From: an uncultured Lacinutrix sp.
GTDB lineage: Bacteria > Bacteroidota > Bacteroidia > Flavobacteriales > Flavobacteriaceae
Direction: 5' to 3'
Assembly: GCF_947500325.1 (NCBI RefSeq)
Contig: NZ_CANMRQ010000021.1
Coordinates: forward strand, 1-61,709
Length of the DNA: 61,709 nucleotides
How positions within the stretch are numbered: the stretch's first letter is position 1; each line of letters starts with the position of its first letter. The position numbers were made by a program, and so were the translations under genes. Of the stretch, positions 6,399-14,202 are shown one piece after another. Below the pieces are notes generated by a model, which saw nothing but the letters and a program-made list of their open reading frames with translations, was not told where the DNA came from and did no database searches.

Positions 6399-7343
6399 AT
6401 GGAAAACAAATTCTTAACAATTCTAACCATAACGATATTGGCTTTTTGTACAACATTTAGTTATGGTCAACAGGACGCACAATACACTCAGTATATGTAT
6501 AATACCCTTAGTATAAATCCAGCATATGCAGGTTCAAGGGATGTTTTAAGTTTTGTAGGGTTATATCGTACACAATGGGTTGGCTTAGATGGTGCTCCAG
6601 ATACATTTACTGCATCTTTACACTCGCCCGTTGGAGAAAAAGTAGGATTAGGATTAAATGTAACTCATGATAAGATTTTTATTACTCAAGAAACATATAT
6701 AGACCTAGATTTTAGTTATACACTAAACCTTTCAGAAGAAAGAAAGTTAGCTCTTGGGTTAAAAGGAGGCGGACATTTTCTAAATATTGATACTAATAGG
6801 TTAAATACAGGGGCTTTTAATCCAGGTGACGCAGAAGCTGAGATTAATGTAGATAATAAGTTTTCACCTCAATTTGGGGTTGGTATATATTATTATACAA
6901 AACAATGGTACTTAGGTTTAAGTGTACCTAATATGTTAGAAACAAAACATTTTGATTTAAACGCAGCAAATAATAATTCATTTGCTACGGCCAAAGAACG
7001 AGTTAATATTTATTTAATGGCTGGTAAGACATTTGATTTAAATAGTGATCTTAAACTTAAACCTGCTGGATTATTAAAAGCTGTTGATGGTTCTCCTCTT
7101 CAAGTGGATTTATCTGCTAGTTTATTGATAAAGAAAAAACTAACCTTAGGATTAGCTTATAGGTGGAGTGCTGCATTAAGTGGATTGGTTGGCTTTCAAC
7201 TTTCAGATTCATTAATGCTTGGTTTTGCATACGATAGAGAAACAACAGAGTTAAAGCAATATAACGATGGTTCTTATGAGTTTTTTCTACGCTATGAATT
7301 ATTCAAAAGAAATAATCGTATGATTTCACCAAGATTTTTCTAA
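6399..7343 (+). CDS. PorP/SprF family T9SS outer-membrane protein
   Basis: The product has 314 residues with a cleavable signal peptide ending around TTFSYGQ, followed by the QQDAQYTQYMYNTLSINPAYAGSRD segment typical of PorP/SprF proteins and an amphipathic beta-barrel pattern ending in a C-terminal aromatic residue. In Flavobacterium johnsoniae, SprF is encoded just downstream of the adhesin gene sprB and is needed for its surface localisation. The same order here (adhesin, then this gene 56 bp later) suggests a dedicated partner for the upstream adhesin. Such proteins occur in many paralogs, so assignment to this adhesin rests on position. Confidence 0.9.
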   Translation: MENKFLTILTITILAFCTTFSYGQQDAQYTQYMYNTLSINPAYAGSRDVLSFVGLYRTQWVGLDGAPDTFTASLHSPVGEKVGLGLNVTHDKIFITQETYIDLDFSYTLNLSEERKLALGLKGGGHFLNIDTNRLNTGAFNPGDAEAEINVDNKFSPQFGVGIYYYTKQWYLGLSVPNMLETKHFDLNAANNNSFATAKERVNIYLMAGKTFDLNSDLKLKPAGLLKAVDGSPLQVDLSASLLIKKKLTLGLAYRWSAALSGLVGFQLSDSLMLGFAYDRETTELKQYNDGSYEFFLRYELFKRNNRMISPRFF

Positions 7344-7366: not shown

Positions 7367-9328
7367 ATGAGACAATATATACATATTATAATAGCTTTAG
7401 TTCTCGTAAGTAGTTCACAATTGTGGGCACAAGAGAATACTGTCGAAAAAGGAAATAAAGAGTTTGAAGAATTTGCATATATCGATGCTAGAGAAGCTTA
7501 TTTAAAAGTCGCTGAAGATGGTTACCAGTCTGAAGATTTGTTAAAACGATTAGCAGATTCGTATTACTATACAGCGGATTATACTCAAGCAGCTAAATGG
7601 TATGGTGTTTTATATGATAGAGGAAACAAAGAAGCAGATTATTTGTATAAATATGCTTTGTCTTTGAAAAGTGATAAATCATATGTAGCATCAGATCAAA
7701 TAATGGAAGAGTTTATAGATATAAAAGGGCAAGATTATAGAGCAAAGTTGTTTTTTAATGAGCGTAATTATTTAGAAGAAATTGAAGAACAGTCAGGTAG
7801 GTTTGAGTTGTCTAACATAGGATTTAATTCTACACTTTCAGATTTTGCACCAGCGTTTTATCAAGGCCGATTAGTTTTTGCATCAAATAGAAGTAAACGA
7901 TCAGCAAGAAAAATGATTCATAATTGGAATGAACAACCATTTTTAGATATTTATGGCGTGCCAGTAGGCGATGATACCAGAGGTAAAGGTGTAGAAGTGT
8001 TTGATAAAACAATCAATTCAAAATACCATGAGTCAACAGCTGTTTTTACAAAAGATGGCTTAACCATGTATTTTACAAGAAATAATTATACCAAAGAAGA
8101 TTATAAAGAAGATTCTGAAGGTACTAATAGACTCAAATTATATAGAGCAAAACGAACAGAAGATTTTGGAGATTGGGAGGTAGAAGAATTACCATTTAAT
8201 AATGATGAATATTCTGTAGCTCATCCTACGCTTAGTAAAGATGAAAAAACTTTGTATTTCGCAAGTGATATGCCTGGAGGAAAAGGGCTTTCAGATTTAT
8301 ATAAAATTCCTGTTCAAGGTGATGGTTTTGGAACTGTAGAAAGTTTAGGAGATGGTATTAATACCGAAGGAAGAGAAACATTTCCTTTTGTAAGTGAAGA
8401 TGATAAAATATATTTTGCTTCAGATGGCCATATAGGATTAGGCGGATTAGATGTTTTTGTTGCAGAAATTACTGGCTCGAATAAATTTGGGGAAGTCTTT
8501 AATCTTGGAAGACCAATTAATAGTCCACAAGATGATTTTACATTTATAATTAAAAAAAATGGTTTAGGGTATTTTGCTTCAAATAGATCTGGTGGCGTTG
8601 GAGATGATGATATATATAGCTTTAAAAGTATAAGACCATTAATTACAAGTAGAGTCTGTGTACAAAAAATGGAAGGTGTTGTTAGAGATGAAAGAAGTGA
8701 TGACCCAATAGCAGATGCTAAAGTGTTTTTATTAAATTCTGATGGTAAAGTTATAGATGAAAAAGTATCTAATTATGATGGCTCATTTATATTTAAAGGT
8801 TTAACCTGCAGTACACAGTATGCTGTACGTTCACAAAAAAGAAGTTATTCAACAGCAGAGAAGCCATTTGCAACTGGTAATACACGAGGTACAGTAGAAC
8901 GCACTTTATTTATGAAAACAGGTAATGATTTAGGCAAAACTCTAGCAGAACCTGGTTCAGATTTGGTTACAATATTAGGATTAAATATTATTTATTTTGA
9001 TTTAGATAAAGATTATATAAGAGCAGATGCAGCTAACGAATTAAGAAAAGTAATAGCTGTAATGAAATTATATCCAGAAATGAAAATAGATGTACGCTCG
9101 CATACAGATAGTAGATCGCCGGACGACTATAATATGGATTTATCTAATCGTAGAGCAAAATCAACAATAGATTTTATTGTTAGAAACGGAGGTATAGATA
9201 GTTCTAGATTACAAGGAAGAGGTTATGGAGAAACGAAGCTTGTAAATCGCTGTAGTAATGGTGTTAAATGCAGTGAAGTAGAACATGAATTAAATAGAAG
9301 AAGTGAATTTATAATAGTTGCTAATTAA
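7367..9328 (+). CDS. PorE-like OmpA family protein (TPR, beta-propeller, CNA-B/CRD, OmpA domain)
   Basis: The product has 653 residues. An N-terminal signal peptide (to about SSQLWAQ) is followed by TPR-like helices (about 25-130), WD40/PD40-type propeller blades with repeated LYFASD and IYFASDG motifs (about 150-430), a carboxypeptidase-regulatory-like fold (about 440-520, VCVQKMEGVVRD) and a C-terminal OmpA peptidoglycan-binding domain (about 545-653, IIYFDLDKDYIR and SNRRAKS). This is the domain order of PorE, which anchors the T9SS to peptidoglycan. The gene starts 23 bp after the PorP/SprF gene and is probably co-transcribed with it. It is more likely an adhesin-cluster paralog than the core PorE. 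Confidence 0.85.
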   Translation: MRQYIHIIIALVLVSSSQLWAQENTVEKGNKEFEEFAYIDAREAYLKVAEDGYQSEDLLKRLADSYYYTADYTQAAKWYGVLYDRGNKEADYLYKYALSLKSDKSYVASDQIMEEFIDIKGQDYRAKLFFNERNYLEEIEEQSGRFELSNIGFNSTLSDFAPAFYQGRLVFASNRSKRSARKMIHNWNEQPFLDIYGVPVGDDTRGKGVEVFDKTINSKYHESTAVFTKDGLTMYFTRNNYTKEDYKEDSEGTNRLKLYRAKRTEDFGDWEVEELPFNNDEYSVAHPTLSKDEKTLYFASDMPGGKGLSDLYKIPVQGDGFGTVESLGDGINTEGRETFPFVSEDDKIYFASDGHIGLGGLDVFVAEITGSNKFGEVFNLGRPINSPQDDFTFIIKKNGLGYFASNRSGGVGDDDIYSFKSIRPLITSRVCVQKMEGVVRDERSDDPIADAKVFLLNSDGKVIDEKVSNYDGSFIFKGLTCSTQYAVRSQKRSYSTAEKPFATGNTRGTVERTLFMKTGNDLGKTLAEPGSDLVTILGLNIIYFDLDKDYIRADAANELRKVIAVMKLYPEMKIDVRSHTDSRSPDDYNMDLSNRRAKSTIDFIVRNGGIDSSRLQGRGYGETKLVNRCSNGVKCSEVEHELNRRSEFIIVAN

Positions 9329-9379
9329 TTATAAGTGGATTTAAATTAAGAAGTTGTTGTTTGTGACTTCTAGCAACTA

Positions 9380-9410
9380 AAAAGTGTTCTTTTTTTTAAG
9401 GAACACTTTT
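9380..9410 (+). terminator. Terminator after the OmpA-family gene
   Basis: A 10-bp inverted repeat AAAAGTGTTC / GAACACTTTT encloses a T-rich loop, 50 bp after the stop codon. It closes the adhesin-PorP-OmpA operon before the small-RNA array. Confidence 0.7.
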
Positions 9411-9427
9411 ATAAAATAAAGCTGTAG

Positions 9428-9476
9428 ATAAGTAAGGTGTTTTTAAAGTTAAATATTATTGAATAACCTTACTTAT
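9428..9476. repeat. 11-bp inverted repeat at the head of the small-RNA array
   Basis: ATAAGTAAGGT (9428-9438) and its exact reverse complement ACCTTACTTAT (9466-9476) are separated by 27 bp. The right arm is the first CCTTACTT element of the array, so the left arm is an extra, inverted copy of that element and may be a further binding site. Confidence 0.6.
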
Positions 9477-9523
9477 TGTACGGAAGTTTACACTGTAATT
9501 AACATGTATTATTAGTAATTTTG
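9467..9523 (+). promoter_or_regulatory. Array promoter module 1
   Basis: CCTTACTTATTGTA at 9467-9480 is followed by TAATTTTG at 9516-9523, which matches the Bacteroidota -7 element TAnnTTTG. The distance from the first C to the T of the -7 box is 49 bp, the same as in modules 3, 4 and 5. The upstream element sits too far out to be a -33 box and is placed like an activator site. Confidence 0.6.
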
Positions 9524-9529
9524 ACTCAA

Positions 9530-9657
9530 GTTACAATAAGTAGTTATTTAAAGTATTCAAAATATTGTTACTTCCTAATATGAGTTTCGGGTAGAGTTAT
9601 AATTATTAGACTGTGTAACATTTAAAAAGCGTCCTAAATTTTAGGACGCTTTTTTTT
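9530..9657 (+). ncRNA. Candidate small RNA, array unit 1
   Basis: The start is inferred from the -7 box; the end is the T tract. The unit contains the 55-nt core at 9566-9620, which begins TGTTAC and ends GTAACA (complementary), with an inner pair CTAATA/TATTAG. A Rho-independent terminator follows (AGCGTCCTA 9628-9636 pairing with TAGGACGCT 9642-9650, then seven T). The core is identical, 55 of 55 bases, in units 3 and 4, while the flanks differ. There is no convincing ORF. It could belong to a known flavobacterial RNA family such as Flavo-1, which I cannot test here. Confidence 0.65.
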
Positions 9658-9665
9658 ATTACTCA

Positions 9666-9721
9666 CCTTACTTTTTGTAAGGTAAAACTGTCTTAGTTAT
9701 AAACTATTTTTTTTAACTTTA
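9666..9721 (+). promoter_or_regulatory. Array promoter module 2
   Basis: CCTTACTTTTTGTAAGG (9666-9682) is a full inverted repeat (CCTTAC/GTAAGG). It is followed 48 bp from its first base by TAACTTTA (9714-9721), a weaker -7 box. This is the only module whose spacing is not 49 bp. Confidence 0.5.
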
Positions 9722-9727
9722 ATACAA

Positions 9728-9829
9728 ATTATAAAATACAATTTGTGTTTAAGAGATTAAGTACTGTATTTTAAATATAAATAGATTTAATAGCATTTAA
9801 AGGCGTTCTAAAATTTAGGACGCTTTTTT
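9728..9829 (+). ncRNA. Degenerate array unit 2 (lacks the 55-nt core)
   Basis: The unit has its own promoter module and a terminator (GCGTTCTA 9803-9810 pairing with TAGGACGC 9816-9823 including one G-U, then T tract), but the 55-nt core is missing. A separate small inverted repeat ACAAATT/AATTTGT lies at 9724-9746. Just before the terminator, GCATTTAAA resembles the core's right flank. It is either a decayed copy or an RNA with a different body. Confidence 0.4.
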
Positions 9830-9838
9830 ATTATTAAA

Positions 9839-9895
9839 CCTTACTTTTTGTATGACTAATTTGTATTAAGTCTATATATATTTTTACTAAATTTA
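9839..9895 (+). promoter_or_regulatory. Array promoter module 3
   Basis: CCTTACTTTTTGTA at 9839-9852 and TAAATTTA at 9888-9895 are spaced 49 bp. The 45 bp following the first element are nearly identical to module 4. Confidence 0.55.
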
Positions 9896-9901
9896 ATAAC
9901 T

Positions 9902-10004
9902 CTTAAAAGATATTGTTACTTCCTAATATGAGTTTCGGGTAGAGTTATAATTATTAGACTGTGTAACATTTAAAAAGCGTCCTAAAATTTAGGGCGCTTT
10001 TTTT
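9902..10004 (+). ncRNA. Candidate small RNA, array unit 3
   Basis: The core at 9914-9968 is identical to units 1 and 4. The terminator stem is AGCGTCCTA (9976-9984) with TAGGGCGCT (9990-9998), where A-to-G on the right arm turns a U-A pair into U-G, so pairing is kept. The leader before the core is shorter than in units 1 and 4. Confidence 0.65.
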
Positions 10005-10013
10005 ATTATTAAA

Positions 10014-10070
10014 CCTTACTTTTTGTATGACTAATTCGTATTAAGTCTACATATATTATTACTAATTTTG
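10014..10070 (+). promoter_or_regulatory. Array promoter module 4
   Basis: CCTTACTTTTTGTA at 10014-10027 and TAATTTTG at 10063-10070 are spaced 49 bp. Confidence 0.6.
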
Positions 10071-10076
10071 ATACAA

Positions 10077-10193
10077 GGTTAAATTAAATAACTATTAAAA
10101 ATAATGTTACTTCCTAATATGAGTTTCGGGTAGAGTTATAATTATTAGACTGTGTAACATATAAAAAAGCGCTCTATGTATTAGAGCGCTTTT
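10077..10193 (+). ncRNA. Candidate small RNA, array unit 4
   Basis: The core at 10105-10159 is identical to units 1 and 3. The terminator stem is AGCGCTCTA (10168-10176) with TAGAGCGCT (10182-10190). Relative to unit 1, two neighbouring base pairs have changed on both arms together, so the stem is under selection even though its sequence drifted. Confidence 0.65.
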
Positions 10194-10202
10194 GTTATTT
10201 AA

Positions 10203-10259
10203 CCTTACTTTTTGTAAGGAGAATTTACATATTGGTTTAGTTCCTAATTACTAATTTTA
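10203..10259 (+). promoter_or_regulatory. Array promoter module 5, driving the LytTR regulator gene
   Basis: The full inverted repeat CCTTACTTTTTGTAAGG (10203-10219) is followed exactly 49 bp from its first base by TAATTTTA (10252-10259). The regulator's TTG start is at 10281, so the leader would be only about 15 nt. The same architecture as the small-RNA units implies common control of the RNAs and the regulator. Confidence 0.6.
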
Positions 10260-10280
10260 GTAATAATTAAATTAAATCCT

Positions 10281-11006
10281 TTGAATAATTATTTCATAAT
10301 AGAAAAAGAATGCTCTTCAGTTAAGCAGATTATGGATGTTTTTAAAAGCTATCCAGACTTTCTTTTTAAAGGAGTATCTAGTGATTATAACACAGCAATG
10401 AATACAATTCTAAAAGAAACATTAGATATTATTTTCGTGTGCGTGGATAATACATTAAGTAATCCTTTTCAATTTATTAATGAAGTATTTCAGTTTAGTG
10501 AAAAGACTCCAAGAATAGTAGCTATTTCATATTCTAAAAGTAAAGCATACGATGCCATAAAAGGCGGTCTTTATGATTTTATATTGAAACCTTTAACCGA
10601 ATTAGAAATTAGAAAAACTATTCTAAAGGCTAAAAAAGAAAGACAAACTCAAATAAAGAATACTATTTGTTTAAAATCCTATAGAGATTATCAATATTTA
10701 AATGCTGATGAGATTTTATTTCTTAAAGCAGATAATAATGCTACCGATTTTTATATGAAAGGAGAAAAAACAATTAGTGCCTATAAAACTTTAAAAACAT
10801 TTGAAGATGTATTGCCTAATAATTTCTTAAGAATTCATAAAAGTTATATTATAAATGCAAACCATGTTTCTAGAATTAATTATGGAAAATACATTTGTAA
10901 TATAAATGAACATAGTTTAAATATTCCTTTCACTAAAACATATATTGAAAACATTGAAGAAATTAATAAAAAACTATCCAGTTCAATTTCCTTTCCGCTT
11001 AATTAA
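10281..11006 (+). CDS. LytTR-family DNA-binding regulator with degenerate receiver domain
   Basis: The product has 241 residues with a TTG start. Residues about 1-120 have a response-regulator receiver fold with the conserved Lys (ILKPL), but the N-terminal acidic pair is replaced (YFIIEKE) and the phospho-acceptor region reads IIFVCVDNT, so classical phosphorylation is doubtful. Residues about 130-235 form a LytTR DNA-binding domain (YLNADEILFLKADNN, FLRIHKSYIIN, PFTKTY). Its gene is driven by module 5 of the preceding array, so it may bind the CCTTACTT elements and control the RNAs and itself. No kinase gene is directly paired with it: the kinase at 11459 has its own regulator. Confidence 0.85.
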   Translation: MNNYFIIEKECSSVKQIMDVFKSYPDFLFKGVSSDYNTAMNTILKETLDIIFVCVDNTLSNPFQFINEVFQFSEKTPRIVAISYSKSKAYDAIKGGLYDFILKPLTELEIRKTILKAKKERQTQIKNTICLKSYRDYQYLNADEILFLKADNNATDFYMKGEKTISAYKTLKTFEDVLPNNFLRIHKSYIINANHVSRINYGKYICNINEHSLNIPFTKTYIENIEEINKKLSSSISFPLN

Positions 11007-11218: not shown

Positions 11219-11374
11219 ATGAAAGCCTTGAAAATTATTTTAGCAATAGCCCTATTTACTAGTACATTTTACGCTTGTACGCCTACAGAAATTACAGAAA
11301 ACGACTCTCCTGAATTAATAGAACAAGCCACAGGTGGAGATGACGAAACAGGAATAGATGAAGATAAAGATTAA
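11219..11374 (+). CDS. Small acidic lipoprotein (51 aa)
   Basis: The ATG at 11219 opens a 51-residue product. It has a Lys-containing n-region and hydrophobic core ending in the lipobox FYAC (Cys20), followed by a short acidic tail with TGGDDETGIDEDKD at the C-terminus. The mature peptide would be a 32-residue acidic lipopeptide. It is followed by its own terminator and then, 84 bp after the stop, by the TPR histidine kinase. Small lipoproteins of this style are common and uncharacterised in Flavobacteriaceae. Function is unknown; a signal or accessory peptide for the neighbouring kinase is possible but only positional. Confidence 0.7.
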   Translation: MKALKIILAIALFTSTFYACTPTEITENDSPELIEQATGGDDETGIDEDKD

Positions 11375-11458: not shown

Positions 11459-13525
11459 TTGAAAAGAATCTCAAGTATATATAATAATGCTCTTTTTTTT
11501 ATAATAATTGGAGTTTTTTCAATTTCAATTTCCTGTACCTCTAAAAATGAATCGTTAAGCAAAAATTTATCTATAAGAAAAGATAGTATCTCAATATGGA
11601 TAAATGAGTCAAAAAAGAATTCATTAAATCTAGAACAAAGAAAAAATAGGCTAATGAAAGCTTATAATTCTAATGAGAATTTAAAAAACGACTCCTTAAA
11701 GGGTAGGAATTTGTTGAAAATTGCTTTTGAAGCATACAGACAAAAAAATTACACTTTCTTCAAAAAAGTAAACAAAGAAGCTTTATCGTTATCATTAAAA
11801 ACAAAAGATACATTTGGAATAGCAGATACTCACTGGAATTGTGGTAACTTTTTTTCTAGAAAAGAAGTTAATGATAGCGCTTACTACCATTATTCTGAAG
11901 CGAATAAACTTTATGAAGTTATAGGCGATAAGTATTACTCGGCCAAAATGTTATACAACATGTCTATAATTCAGGCTAATACCAAAGATTATACTGGAAG
12001 CGAAAAATTAATGGTTAAAGCTATTTCTAAATTTAAACCCTTAGAAAGAAATCTTAATTTGTATAGAAGTTATAATCATTTAGGAGTTATATATAAAGAG
12101 CTAGAAGAATATGAACGCTCTGTTTTTTACCATAATCAAGCATTGAGTTTCTTGAAGAAGATTAAAGACAAAAAGATTAAAAACAACAGGTTTTATAAAG
12201 AAGGAAGTTATAATAACTTAAGTTTAGTATATCAAAAATGGGGAAACCATGATGAAGCAATATTTTATTTAAAAGAAGCATTAGAAAATACTAAAGTAAG
12301 AATAGAAAACCCCAAATTATATGCAAGATTAATAGATAATTTGGCATATAATAAGCTTCAAAAAGGAGATGTAGCTAATCTTTCTAAAGCTTTTTTTAAT
12401 GCGCTAAGTATTAGAGATAGTCTTGATGATACTTCAGGAATTATTATTAATAAATTGCATTTGGCAGAGTATTATTTAAAGCTAGAAGATACCTCTCAAG
12501 CTATTAGTTTTGCAAGTGATGCAAATAAACTAGCAAAAAATGCAAATAGAAATAGAGACCATTTAGTAGCATTAAAACTGTTATCAAAAATAGATACTCT
12601 AAACTCTAAAAAGTATTTAAATAATTATATAACACTTGGAGATAGTCTTCAAAGAAACGAGCGAAAAATACGAGAGAAATTTACAAGAATACTTTTTGAG
12701 ACTGATGAGTTTCAGGAAGAAACCAAACGTTCTGAGCAACAAAAGAAAATAGCTTTTGCTCTTAGTATAGTATCTGTTTTTGCTATTTCGTTACTTTATT
12801 TTGTTAAACGTCAACACTCAAAAAACAAACAACTAATTTTTGAAAGCGAGCAACAAAAATCTAACGAAGAGATATATAGGTTAATGTTAAAACAGCAATC
12901 AAATCTAGAAGAAGGACGATTATTAGAAAGAAATAGAATATCTGAAGAGTTACATGATGGTGTTTTGGGTAGATTATTTGGAACCCGATTAGGAATTGGC
13001 TTTTTAGACCTTGAAGGTGATGCAGAAGCATTAGAAAAACATGAAAAATATATTGACGAATTACAAAGCATAGAAAAGGAAATAAGAACAATTTCTCACG
13101 AACTTAAAAATGAAATCCTTTCCTCTAAACTTAGTTATGTAGACTTAATAGAGAATTTATTAGAGAAACAAAATGTTAAAGGAGAGTACAAACATACACT
13201 TACATTTAATGATGATATTTATTGGGATGAAGTCGATGAAAAAATAAAAATTAATATTTATAGAATAATACAGGAAGCACTTCAAAATATTAATAAATAT
13301 TCTAAAGCCAAAAACGTTAGTATTGATTTTGATATAAGAGATAATATTCTTAATTTAACAATGGCGGACGATGGCATAGGATTTAATGTGAAAAAGGCGG
13401 CTAAAGGTATAGGTCTACTCAATATATCTTCTAGAGCAAAAAAACTTGGAGCTGAGTTAATTATCTCATCTACTAAAAACCAAGGAACAGAAATTATTGT
13501 AAAAACCCCTATCAATAGTAATTAA
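11459..13525 (+). CDS. TPR-containing sensor histidine kinase (HisKA_3 type)
   Basis: The product has 688 residues with a TTG start. An N-terminal signal/lipobox-like segment (SISISC) is followed by periplasmic TPR repeats (about 60-400), one membrane segment (about 430-448, IAFALSIVSVFAISLLYF), a coiled linker, a HisKA_3 dimerisation domain with ELHDGVLG (His499) and an HATPase domain with DDGIGFN and GIGLLNI. It is a NarX-like kinase common in Bacteroidota. It probably phosphorylates the regulator encoded 2 bp downstream. The TPR sensor suggests detection of a protein or peptide. Confidence 0.92.
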   Translation: MKRISSIYNNALFFIIIGVFSISISCTSKNESLSKNLSIRKDSISIWINESKKNSLNLEQRKNRLMKAYNSNENLKNDSLKGRNLLKIAFEAYRQKNYTFFKKVNKEALSLSLKTKDTFGIADTHWNCGNFFSRKEVNDSAYYHYSEANKLYEVIGDKYYSAKMLYNMSIIQANTKDYTGSEKLMVKAISKFKPLERNLNLYRSYNHLGVIYKELEEYERSVFYHNQALSFLKKIKDKKIKNNRFYKEGSYNNLSLVYQKWGNHDEAIFYLKEALENTKVRIENPKLYARLIDNLAYNKLQKGDVANLSKAFFNALSIRDSLDDTSGIIINKLHLAEYYLKLEDTSQAISFASDANKLAKNANRNRDHLVALKLLSKIDTLNSKKYLNNYITLGDSLQRNERKIREKFTRILFETDEFQEETKRSEQQKKIAFALSIVSVFAISLLYFVKRQHSKNKQLIFESEQQKSNEEIYRLMLKQQSNLEEGRLLERNRISEELHDGVLGRLFGTRLGIGFLDLEGDAEALEKHEKYIDELQSIEKEIRTISHELKNEILSSKLSYVDLIENLLEKQNVKGEYKHTLTFNDDIYWDEVDEKIKINIYRIIQEALQNINKYSKAKNVSIDFDIRDNILNLTMADDGIGFNVKKAAKGIGLLNISSRAKKLGAELIISSTKNQGTEIIVKTPINSN

Positions 13526-13527
13526 GT

Positions 13528-14202
13528 ATGAAAAAGTACAACGTATTAATAATTGATGACCATCCATTAATTGTTGATGCCTATAAGAACGCACTAAACT
13601 ATATTAGTTCTAAAGACAAAGATTTAGTATTTGAAATTGATGTAGCAAATGATTGTGATTCTGCTGTAGAGAAAATTACCGCAGCCACGAAAAGTGAAAC
13701 AGAATATATTATATTTTTAGATATTAGATTACCACCTTCTTGTGATAAAAAATACCTTTCTGGAGAAGATATAGGTCATAAAATCAATGAACTATTACCA
13801 GAATCTAAGATTATATTATCTACAACACTAAATGACAATTATCGAGTTCATAGTATTCTAAAAAACATTAATCCTGATGGGTTTTTAATAAAAAATGATA
13901 TTACGCCAAAAGATCTAGTTATGGCCGTAAAAACAGTTATTACCGAACCTCCGTTTTATACTAAAACTGTTATTCAATTAATGCGAAAACAAATATCTAA
14001 TGATTTTGTTTTAGATAGGATAGATAGGCAATTATTGTATGAACTATCTATAGGTACGAAAATGAAAGAATTGCCTAATATTTTACCATTATCTATGGCA
14101 GGAATTGAAAAGCGAAAAAGACAACTAAAAGAGGTGTTTGATGTAAAAAACTATGGCGATAAAGAACTTGTAAATCTGGCCAAAGAAAAAGGGTTTATTT
14201 AA
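13528..14202 (+). CDS. Response regulator (receiver plus HTH-like output)
   Basis: The product has 224 residues. The receiver domain has LIIDDH, phospho-acceptor Asp65 (FLDIRLPP) and conserved Lys in FLIKND. The C-terminal part (about 160-224, ending KNYGDKELVNLAKEKGFI) is a short LuxR/NarL-like helical output domain, divergent from the standard HTH. The ATG lies 2 bp after the kinase stop, so the pair is co-transcribed and very likely cognate. Target genes are not evident from the window. Confidence 0.9.
   Translation: MKKYNVLIIDDHPLIVDAYKNALNYISSKDKDLVFEIDVANDCDSAVEKITAATKSETEYIIFLDIRLPPSCDKKYLSGEDIGHKINELLPESKIILSTTLNDNYRVHSILKNINPDGFLIKNDITPKDLVMAVKTVITEPPFYTKTVIQLMRKQISNDFVLDRIDRQLLYELSIGTKMKELPNILPLSMAGIEKRKRQLKEVFDVKNYGDKELVNLAKEKGFI

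Follow-up and report, generated by a model that had tools for sequence, protein, structure and literature searches.

The tandem array of small-RNA-like units in the window (the whole stretch of 61,709 nucleotides that was analysed) is probably a set of multicopy small RNAs (sRNAs) which are controlled by the LytTR-family regulator encoded beside them and which work like the LhrC sRNAs of Listeria. Four units are present, with 173-199 nt between successive operators, and by sequence comparison the promoter of the LytTR-regulator gene next to the array recurs as a copy at the start of each of them. Three units carry an identical 55-nt core, and the second (9665-9831) has the promoter and the terminator and is devoid of the core. 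The original prediction had read the region as repeated, structured sRNAs, perhaps of the Flavo-1 class; the former part is still the best reading and has gained a predicted promoter for every unit, while the latter part has fallen. The coreless unit, the operator copies and the link to LytTR are additions to that prediction. The features are collected in Table 1.

Table 1. Features of the array and of the genes on both sides of it (window positions).
Feature	Positions	Strand	Evidence or remark
Giant repeat adhesin, 3' part; 5' part lost at the contig end, probably on contig C26	1..6342	+	
PorP/SprF	6399..7343	+	PF11751
OmpA/PD40 protein, presumably encoded at the end of the adhesin operon	7367..9328	+	
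OmpA mRNA 3' end: 9-bp stem over the stop codon plus terminator-like hairpin	9315..9410	+	
Unit 1 operator copy, ACCTTACTTATTGTACGGA	9466..9484	+	1 mismatch to ACCNTA-N7-TANGGT
Unit 1 -7 box, TAATTTTG, offset 50; transcript start inferred near 9530	9516..9523	+	
Unit 1 core, 55 nt	9566..9620	+	
Unit 1 terminator and T tail	9624..9657	+	terminator scan
Unit 2 operator copy, ACCTTACTTTTTGTAAGGT	9665..9683	+	perfect
Unit 2 -7 box, TAACTTTA, weak, offset 49	9714..9721	+	
Unit 2 (coreless) terminator and tail	9799..9831	+	terminator scan
Unit 3 operator copy, degenerate second half-site	9838..9856	+	2 mismatches
Unit 3 -7 box, TAAATTTA, weak, offset 50	9888..9895	+	
Unit 3 core	9914..9968	+	
Unit 3 terminator and tail	9972..10004	+	terminator scan
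Unit 4 operator copy, degenerate second half-site	10013..10031	+	2 mismatches
Unit 4 -7 box, TAATTTTG, offset 50	10063..10070	+	
Unit 4 core	10105..10159	+	
Unit 4 terminator, two compensated pairs	10165..10196	+	terminator scan
LytTR gene operator, presumed template of the unit promoters	10202..10220	+	
LytTR gene -7 box, TAATTTTA, offset 50	10252..10259	+	
LytTR-family regulator, 241 aa, TTG start as listed	10281..11006	+	PF04397, E 2e-15
Small lipoprotein-like gene of the LytTR module, 51 aa, acidic tail	11219..11374	+	
TPR histidine kinase of the LytTR module	11459..13525	+	TPR, HisKA_3, HATPase_c
Response regulator of the LytTR module	13528..14202	+	PF00072

The three cores agree at 55/55 positions in all three pairwise comparisons, and no further copy with three or fewer mismatches was found in the whole 4.57 Mb genome. 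The leaders of the core-bearing units differ pairwise by 6-11 mismatches and 18-30 gap positions, and the stretches between core and terminator by 2-9 mismatches and 1-2 gaps. The block common to the three copies starts exactly at the closing stem and stops one base past it. The core is predicted to fold into two 6-bp stems enclosing a 23-nt loop, inside which there is a weak 3-bp stem, and the conserved loop sequence of the RNA is AGUUUCG(G/A)GUAGAGU. The stability of the core alone is not raised above that of shuffled sequences (z +0.26), so thermodynamics by itself says little, and the z of -4.5 obtained for the core together with its terminator is due to the stability that the terminator supplies. 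A terminator scan gave five terminator-like sites against 0.1 expected in shuffles; four of them are the plus-strand terminators of the units and the fifth is the unit 4 terminator on the opposite strand. The array has three cores and four terminators in all. These results bear out most of what had originally been claimed: three exact cores with diverged flanks at just these coordinates, a TGTTAC/GTAACA and a CTAATA/TATTAG stem (both are in the minimum-energy fold), a terminator behind each core, and two pairs of the unit 4 terminator stem (GCGCTCTA/TAGAGCGC) that are altered on both arms relative to unit 1 (GCGTCCTA/TAGGACGC).

The suggested membership of Flavo-1 (RF01705) did not hold up: its model, with a cut-off of 42 bits, finds nothing above that score in the window genome, where it gives four weak matches, none of them in the array, and at E<=10 it is absent from 9300-10320. 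A scan of the window against Rfam gave 0 matches at gathering score, and the best Rfam match at E<=10 in the array region, which is due to the terminator, reaches 27.2 bits where the gathering score is 55. Other Rfam families were rejected on these scans, and Flavo-1 is excluded by its own model. In addition, a mobile or phage origin was considered and rejected, a 22-mer of the core being absent from viral contigs and 701 bases of the array matching no plasmid or phage.

The predicted promoter is defined by an inverted repeat, ACCTTA-N7-TAAGGT, which starts 49-50 nt ahead of a -7 box like TAATTTTG. When the operator was scored as ACCNTA-N7-TANGGT, the offset being counted from the operator start to the -7 box, a putative promoter with this common regulator site was recognized in 4/4 units, with 0-2 mismatches in the operator, offsets of 49-50 and two weak boxes. 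The same arrangement was looked for upstream of LytTR genes of relatives. Matches to the regulator at E<=1e-30 occur in 39/149 family genomes, the window genome included, and the 85 loci from relatives consist of 29 from this survey (the best ones besides the window's own, from the 149 genomes) and 56 from named genomes (out of 80 loci among the matches listed, the other 24 being weaker and dropped); 84 of the 85 were used in motif tests, L179 being excluded. A first motif test with a guessed spacer of 5 nt gave no enrichment, scores of 10 or more being reached in 22% of the upstreams and 20% of the shuffles; the true spacer, seen by inspection of the upstreams, is 7 nt. In an unguided count of gapped 7-mers over 81 LytTR upstreams, AACCNTA was the most enriched word (50/81 against 12.0 in shuffles). 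That set contained near-duplicates, and removal of 8 of the 84 loci that share 30 nt left 76 distinct loci, which come from related genera and are not independent samples; the half-site is upstream of the LytTR gene in 46 of these 76 (shuffled mean 9.7), and paired half-sites at most 25 nt apart are in 32 (1.3 in shuffles).

The distance between operator and box is constrained too. An operator at no more than one mismatch is present in 29 of these LytTR upstreams, and in 17 of the 29 a -7 box lies within 48-52 nt, every time at exactly 50 (shuffle control: mean 0.24, maximum 2 in 500 rounds), and the plain box TA-N1-2-TTTG alone is found in 13/29, again always at 50 (mean 0.21, maximum 3). In a set of 30 upstreams a stricter -7 pattern was present at 47-52 in 6 (control 0.8), and a looser pattern, which includes box forms added once the sequences had been read, in 18. 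Such rigid phasing is what a regulator-dependent promoter would need. Since many genera of the family have this operator next to their LytTR regulators, it is put forward as a binding-site hypothesis for the module of regulator, lipoprotein and kinase. Other arrangements were also observed: upstream of LytTR genes in some other genera (e.g., L131, L156 and L171) the half-sites are either reversed, TANGGT-N3-ACCNTA, or placed alternately, with 9 and 13 between their starts, which would suit several dimers bound side by side.

One reading of these repeats, which we regard as unlikely, is that the array is a DNA decoy in which five operator copies titrate the LytTR protein and shape its autoregulation, the transcripts being functionless. 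The repetition of the operators agrees with it, and so does unit 2, where a perfect operator stands without a core. However, the identical part of the units is the 55-nt core and not the operator, since a comparison of unit 1 with units 3 and 4 shows differences at 3/18 operator positions and at 0/55 core positions, and each unit has kept an in-phase -7 box and a terminator.

The LytTR gene is followed by genes for a small lipoprotein-like protein, a histidine kinase and a response regulator. In the regulator, the LytTR domain is the only one that Pfam calls; the N-terminal part looks like a receiver domain, for which Pfam makes no call. A similar kinase is found at 78/85 LytTR loci and a similar response regulator at 43/85, many of these loci being incomplete in sequence. 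The 51-aa lipoprotein-like gene lies between the LytTR and kinase genes and, on reading, has a counterpart in the related genome G159; its product might be a signal or sensor partner.

On the other side of the array there are the 3' part of a giant adhesin gene and genes for PorP/SprF and OmpA. In the 911,709 bases of the window genome that were searched, an operator with at most one mismatch and a box at 49-51 occurs at 4 places: unit 1, unit 2, the LytTR gene and C26:4073 (minus), which is upstream of a giant adhesin gene. With two mismatches allowed there are 7 places, the additional ones being units 3 and 4 and one other; the looser box list used here includes forms that had come to light in unit 2, unit 3 and the LytTR promoter, and with the plain box only, at two mismatches, units 1 and 4, C26 and one other place remain. 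Three one-mismatch copies of the 15-nt operator half that lie beyond the array and C26 show no such promoter layout on reading. The C26 site consists of a perfect operator with TAATTTG at offset 50, and the adhesin behind it is apparently secreted and runs past the contig end. The last 227 nt of this gene are 95.6-97.8% identical to three repeats of the window adhesin; the same match is absent from the first 6-7 kb of C17 and C3, and C23 gives only 29 nt of an earlier part, these three being the contigs that bear the other OmpA loci compared. C26 thus probably carries the start of the operon that ends in the window, and if so the adhesin operon, the sRNAs and the regulator would stand under one operator.

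Further observations concern the adhesin genes. Four OmpA paralogues, at the starts of C17, C3, C23 and C21, each follow a PorP/SprF-like gene on reading and lie behind cut-off adhesin-like genes; the assembly probably breaks in adhesin repeats. The leaders of two giant adhesin genes, L213:3770-3990 (minus, C26 of the window genome G000) and L214:13700-13900 (G159), have a common element, ACCC..CAATTGT.AAACTTTGG....CAAAAG.AGGGTC, in whose outer stem, judged by eye, G159 has one pair with both partners changed and another that is broken. Rfam gave no gathering match to either leader, and a match of 14.6 bits in that of G159 was taken as chance. The element could be a new riboswitch-like leader. 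An antisense-like stretch was also noted behind the C26 operator.

The core was searched for in relatives by a covariance model, in a first round over 199 family genomes and in a second over 397. The first round gave one locus besides the window's own, G159:C8:47480-47533, with 31.9 bits and E 0.003 for that genome, about 0.6 equally good matches being expected by chance across the 199 genomes; an E of 3e-4 over 57 LytTR loci was computed once the locus was already known. It is convincing because of its position, not its score: it lies between the counterparts of OmpA (53% identity over 441 residues) and of the LytTR regulator (56%), and the gene order from adhesin to response regulator, lipoprotein and kinase included, is on reading that of the window. 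Among the 85 LytTR loci, some of which include so little upstream sequence that OmpA adjacency could be missed, G159 alone has OmpA beside LytTR and alone has the core. The original prediction had named random drift of the core in relatives as a result that would speak against it; this one relative (n=1) keeps 12/12 pairs, one of them with both partners altered and two with a single partner altered, and 14/15 bases of AGUUUCGRGUAGAGU, 16/23 loop bases and 40/51 aligned bases. The retention of pairs is uninformative for two distinct sequences, 263 of 500 shuffles scoring as high. In G159 a single core stands over the OmpA stop codon and is followed by a terminator-like hairpin and then by the LytTR operator; at no more than one mismatch the operator was found neither near the G159 core nor at the G159 adhesin. 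In addition, the operator scan picked up three inverted repeats close to ACCCTA-N7-TAGGGT, at a spacing of 297 nt, in G159 C8:1-18000 (L215:1955, 2252 and 2549).

Only two genomes are known to have the core. In the second round, six weak matches besides the two loci were obtained, of which five were read in their context and that of G007 as sequence only. The weak model matches in G344, G119, G281, G127, G079 and G341 and at a second place in G159 were taken as chance; five of these seven lie wholly within stop-free frames of 211-1017 residues, G127 mostly and G341 partly. Two other genomes of the genus of G159 gave one weak match between them. A 26-mer of the core with at most three mismatches is found in the window genome only among the 397, and a 25-mer is absent from a database of genome contigs, where the record of the window genome itself is possibly missing. 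Within the genus, blastn matched the core in the window genome only, the other matches being mostly terminator-like, and no convincing core was seen in the 12 other members, whose matches were inspected as sequence only. Relatives of the OmpA gene are present in 13/13 genomes of the genus, the window genome included; near the closest one (G005, 63%) nothing comes within three substitutions of the 15-nt middle of the core, and no array was seen when the sequence was read.

The position of the G159 core bears on another interpretation, namely that the cores are 3'UTR or terminator architecture: spacer hairpins and stacked terminators which shield the LytTR gene against transcription running on from the adhesin operon, or which stabilise the 3' end of this operon. 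In G159 the core does lie over a stop codon just ahead of a terminator-like hairpin, and the OmpA mRNA of the window ends with a comparable stem and hairpin. This 3' end has a fold z of -4.2, is absent from the hits of the terminator scan and may possibly be a diverged counterpart of the core; the core model gives it only 3.2 bits, and consequently the link between the OmpA 3'UTR and the core is suggestive only. We give the interpretation little credence, since insulation requires neither an identical loop nor a promoter in every unit, and 14/15 central loop bases (16/23 of the whole loop) are common to two genera. Recent duplication without function, in which recency or gene conversion alone keeps the cores alike, is an improbable explanation as well: tandem repeats in one species would suit it, as would the search of the 12 other members of the genus, which gave no convincing core, but the flanks of the cores have diverged where the cores have not, the identity breaks off with the closing stem at one end and a single base past it at the other, and a homologous core is found in another genus. 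Finally, a minus-strand frame of 17 codons, MLHSLIIITLPETHIRK (9566-9621), is open across the core and starts one base outside it, but it is hardly credible as a peptide gene and probably due to chance, as its G159 counterpart has lost the start codon and has a stop in all three minus-strand frames, and the start codon lies a few bases behind the terminator hairpin.

Multicopy sRNAs under LytTR control are preferred among these readings, and the scheme that we infer is as follows. The array would consist of tandem sRNA genes, three with the core and about 100-130 nt each and one without it, with a separate LytTR promoter copy to start transcription of each unit and a separate terminator to end it. 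The inverted repeat, about 55 bp ahead of the transcript start, would be the binding site of the LytTR protein or of another component of the module of TPR kinase and response regulator, and the activated regulator or module would raise the expression of the LytTR gene itself, of the sRNAs and of the adhesin-PorP/SprF-OmpA operon. The regulator, its sRNAs and probably the giant surface-adhesin operon may then all be turned on by one switch. The sRNA would display the AGUUUCG(G/A)GUAGAGU loop, held by the two 6-bp stems, and would most likely act in trans, the loop pairing with mRNAs of surface proteins, as with LhrC under LisRK.

The targets were approached by ranking 83 genes, among which no clear target emerged. 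The adhesin gene ranks 14/83 over -150..+100 and 6/83 over -300..+350, with a predicted site at about +240 (-17.6 kcal/mol); the response regulator ranks 8, LytTR 29, OmpA 50, PorP/SprF 73 and the kinase 76. A genome-wide search with an antisense pattern gave 1 non-self match against 2 for the reversed control. It is doubtful that the sRNA acts on this adhesin operon.

As to the origin, the single G159 core between the same two genes suggests that the sRNA genes go back to a 3'UTR element that was copied along with the regulator's promoter; probably the duplicated stretch took in the OmpA 3'UTR element and its terminator as well as the LytTR promoter next to them. Tandem duplication of an intergenic stretch of the G159 type would automatically leave each additional core downstream of a LytTR promoter copy, as in the window. 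A fuller account can be offered tentatively, in which a 3'UTR hairpin of the adhesin-operon mRNA was freed as sRNA genes by duplication with the LytTR promoter, and an autoregulated switch now makes the adhesin operon, itself and a multicopy sRNA, by which the mRNA of the adhesin or related surface mRNAs would be adjusted. If this origin is true, an element of an mRNA 3'UTR has been turned into independent sRNA genes through duplication with the promoter of a neighbour, and the birth of an sRNA family is directly visible, its ancestral state surviving in a relative.

To our knowledge, regulatory RNAs are little charted in the Flavobacteriaceae, and the array offers a testable sRNA family, a likely transcription factor for it, an operator and a candidate member of the regulon. 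Judged from search results alone, no publication was recognised on a LytTR-sRNA link, on this LytTR operator or on a multicopy flavobacterial sRNA. In Clostridium perfringens, the LytTR-type regulator VirR controls the regulatory RNA VR-RNA; the likeness to the array lies in a LytTR-type regulator placed over a regulatory RNA, and the difference in that VR-RNA is a single RNA of a Firmicute. Flavo-1 (RF01705) and the array are both short structured RNAs of the Bacteroidetes, but the Rfam model of the former does not match the latter. Rfp18 of Flavobacterium psychrophilum, the deletion of which lowers two metalloprotease mRNAs, is by its description in the part of the report consulted (PMC9723704) a structured sRNA of the same bacterial family; however, it is one sRNA and no LytTR link is named there. 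The FopS family of Bacteroides thetaiotaomicron comprises 14 paralogous sRNAs of about 65-70 nt with canonical promoters in intergenic, antisense and 3'UTR positions, and resembles the array, by description, as a multicopy sRNA family of the same phylum; it differs in these lengths, positions and promoters, and the available portion of the paper mentions no tandem array (PMC11697453). By analogy, the closest working analogue of the array is LhrC1-5 of Listeria monocytogenes, a set of five sRNAs, 111-114 nt long and nearly the same in sequence, with their own promoters and LisRK-dependent expression, for which one known target is an adhesin mRNA and which act through CU-rich motifs (PMC4132741). 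The two are alike, as far as the accessible part of that description goes, in having near-identical sRNA copies and (predicted, in the array) a promoter for each of them and dependence on a two-component system; they differ in the loop, which has a GGG stretch in the array and CU-rich motifs in LhrC, and in the sharing of the promoter with the regulator's own gene, which is predicted for the array and is not stated for LisR in that part of the paper (PMC4132741).
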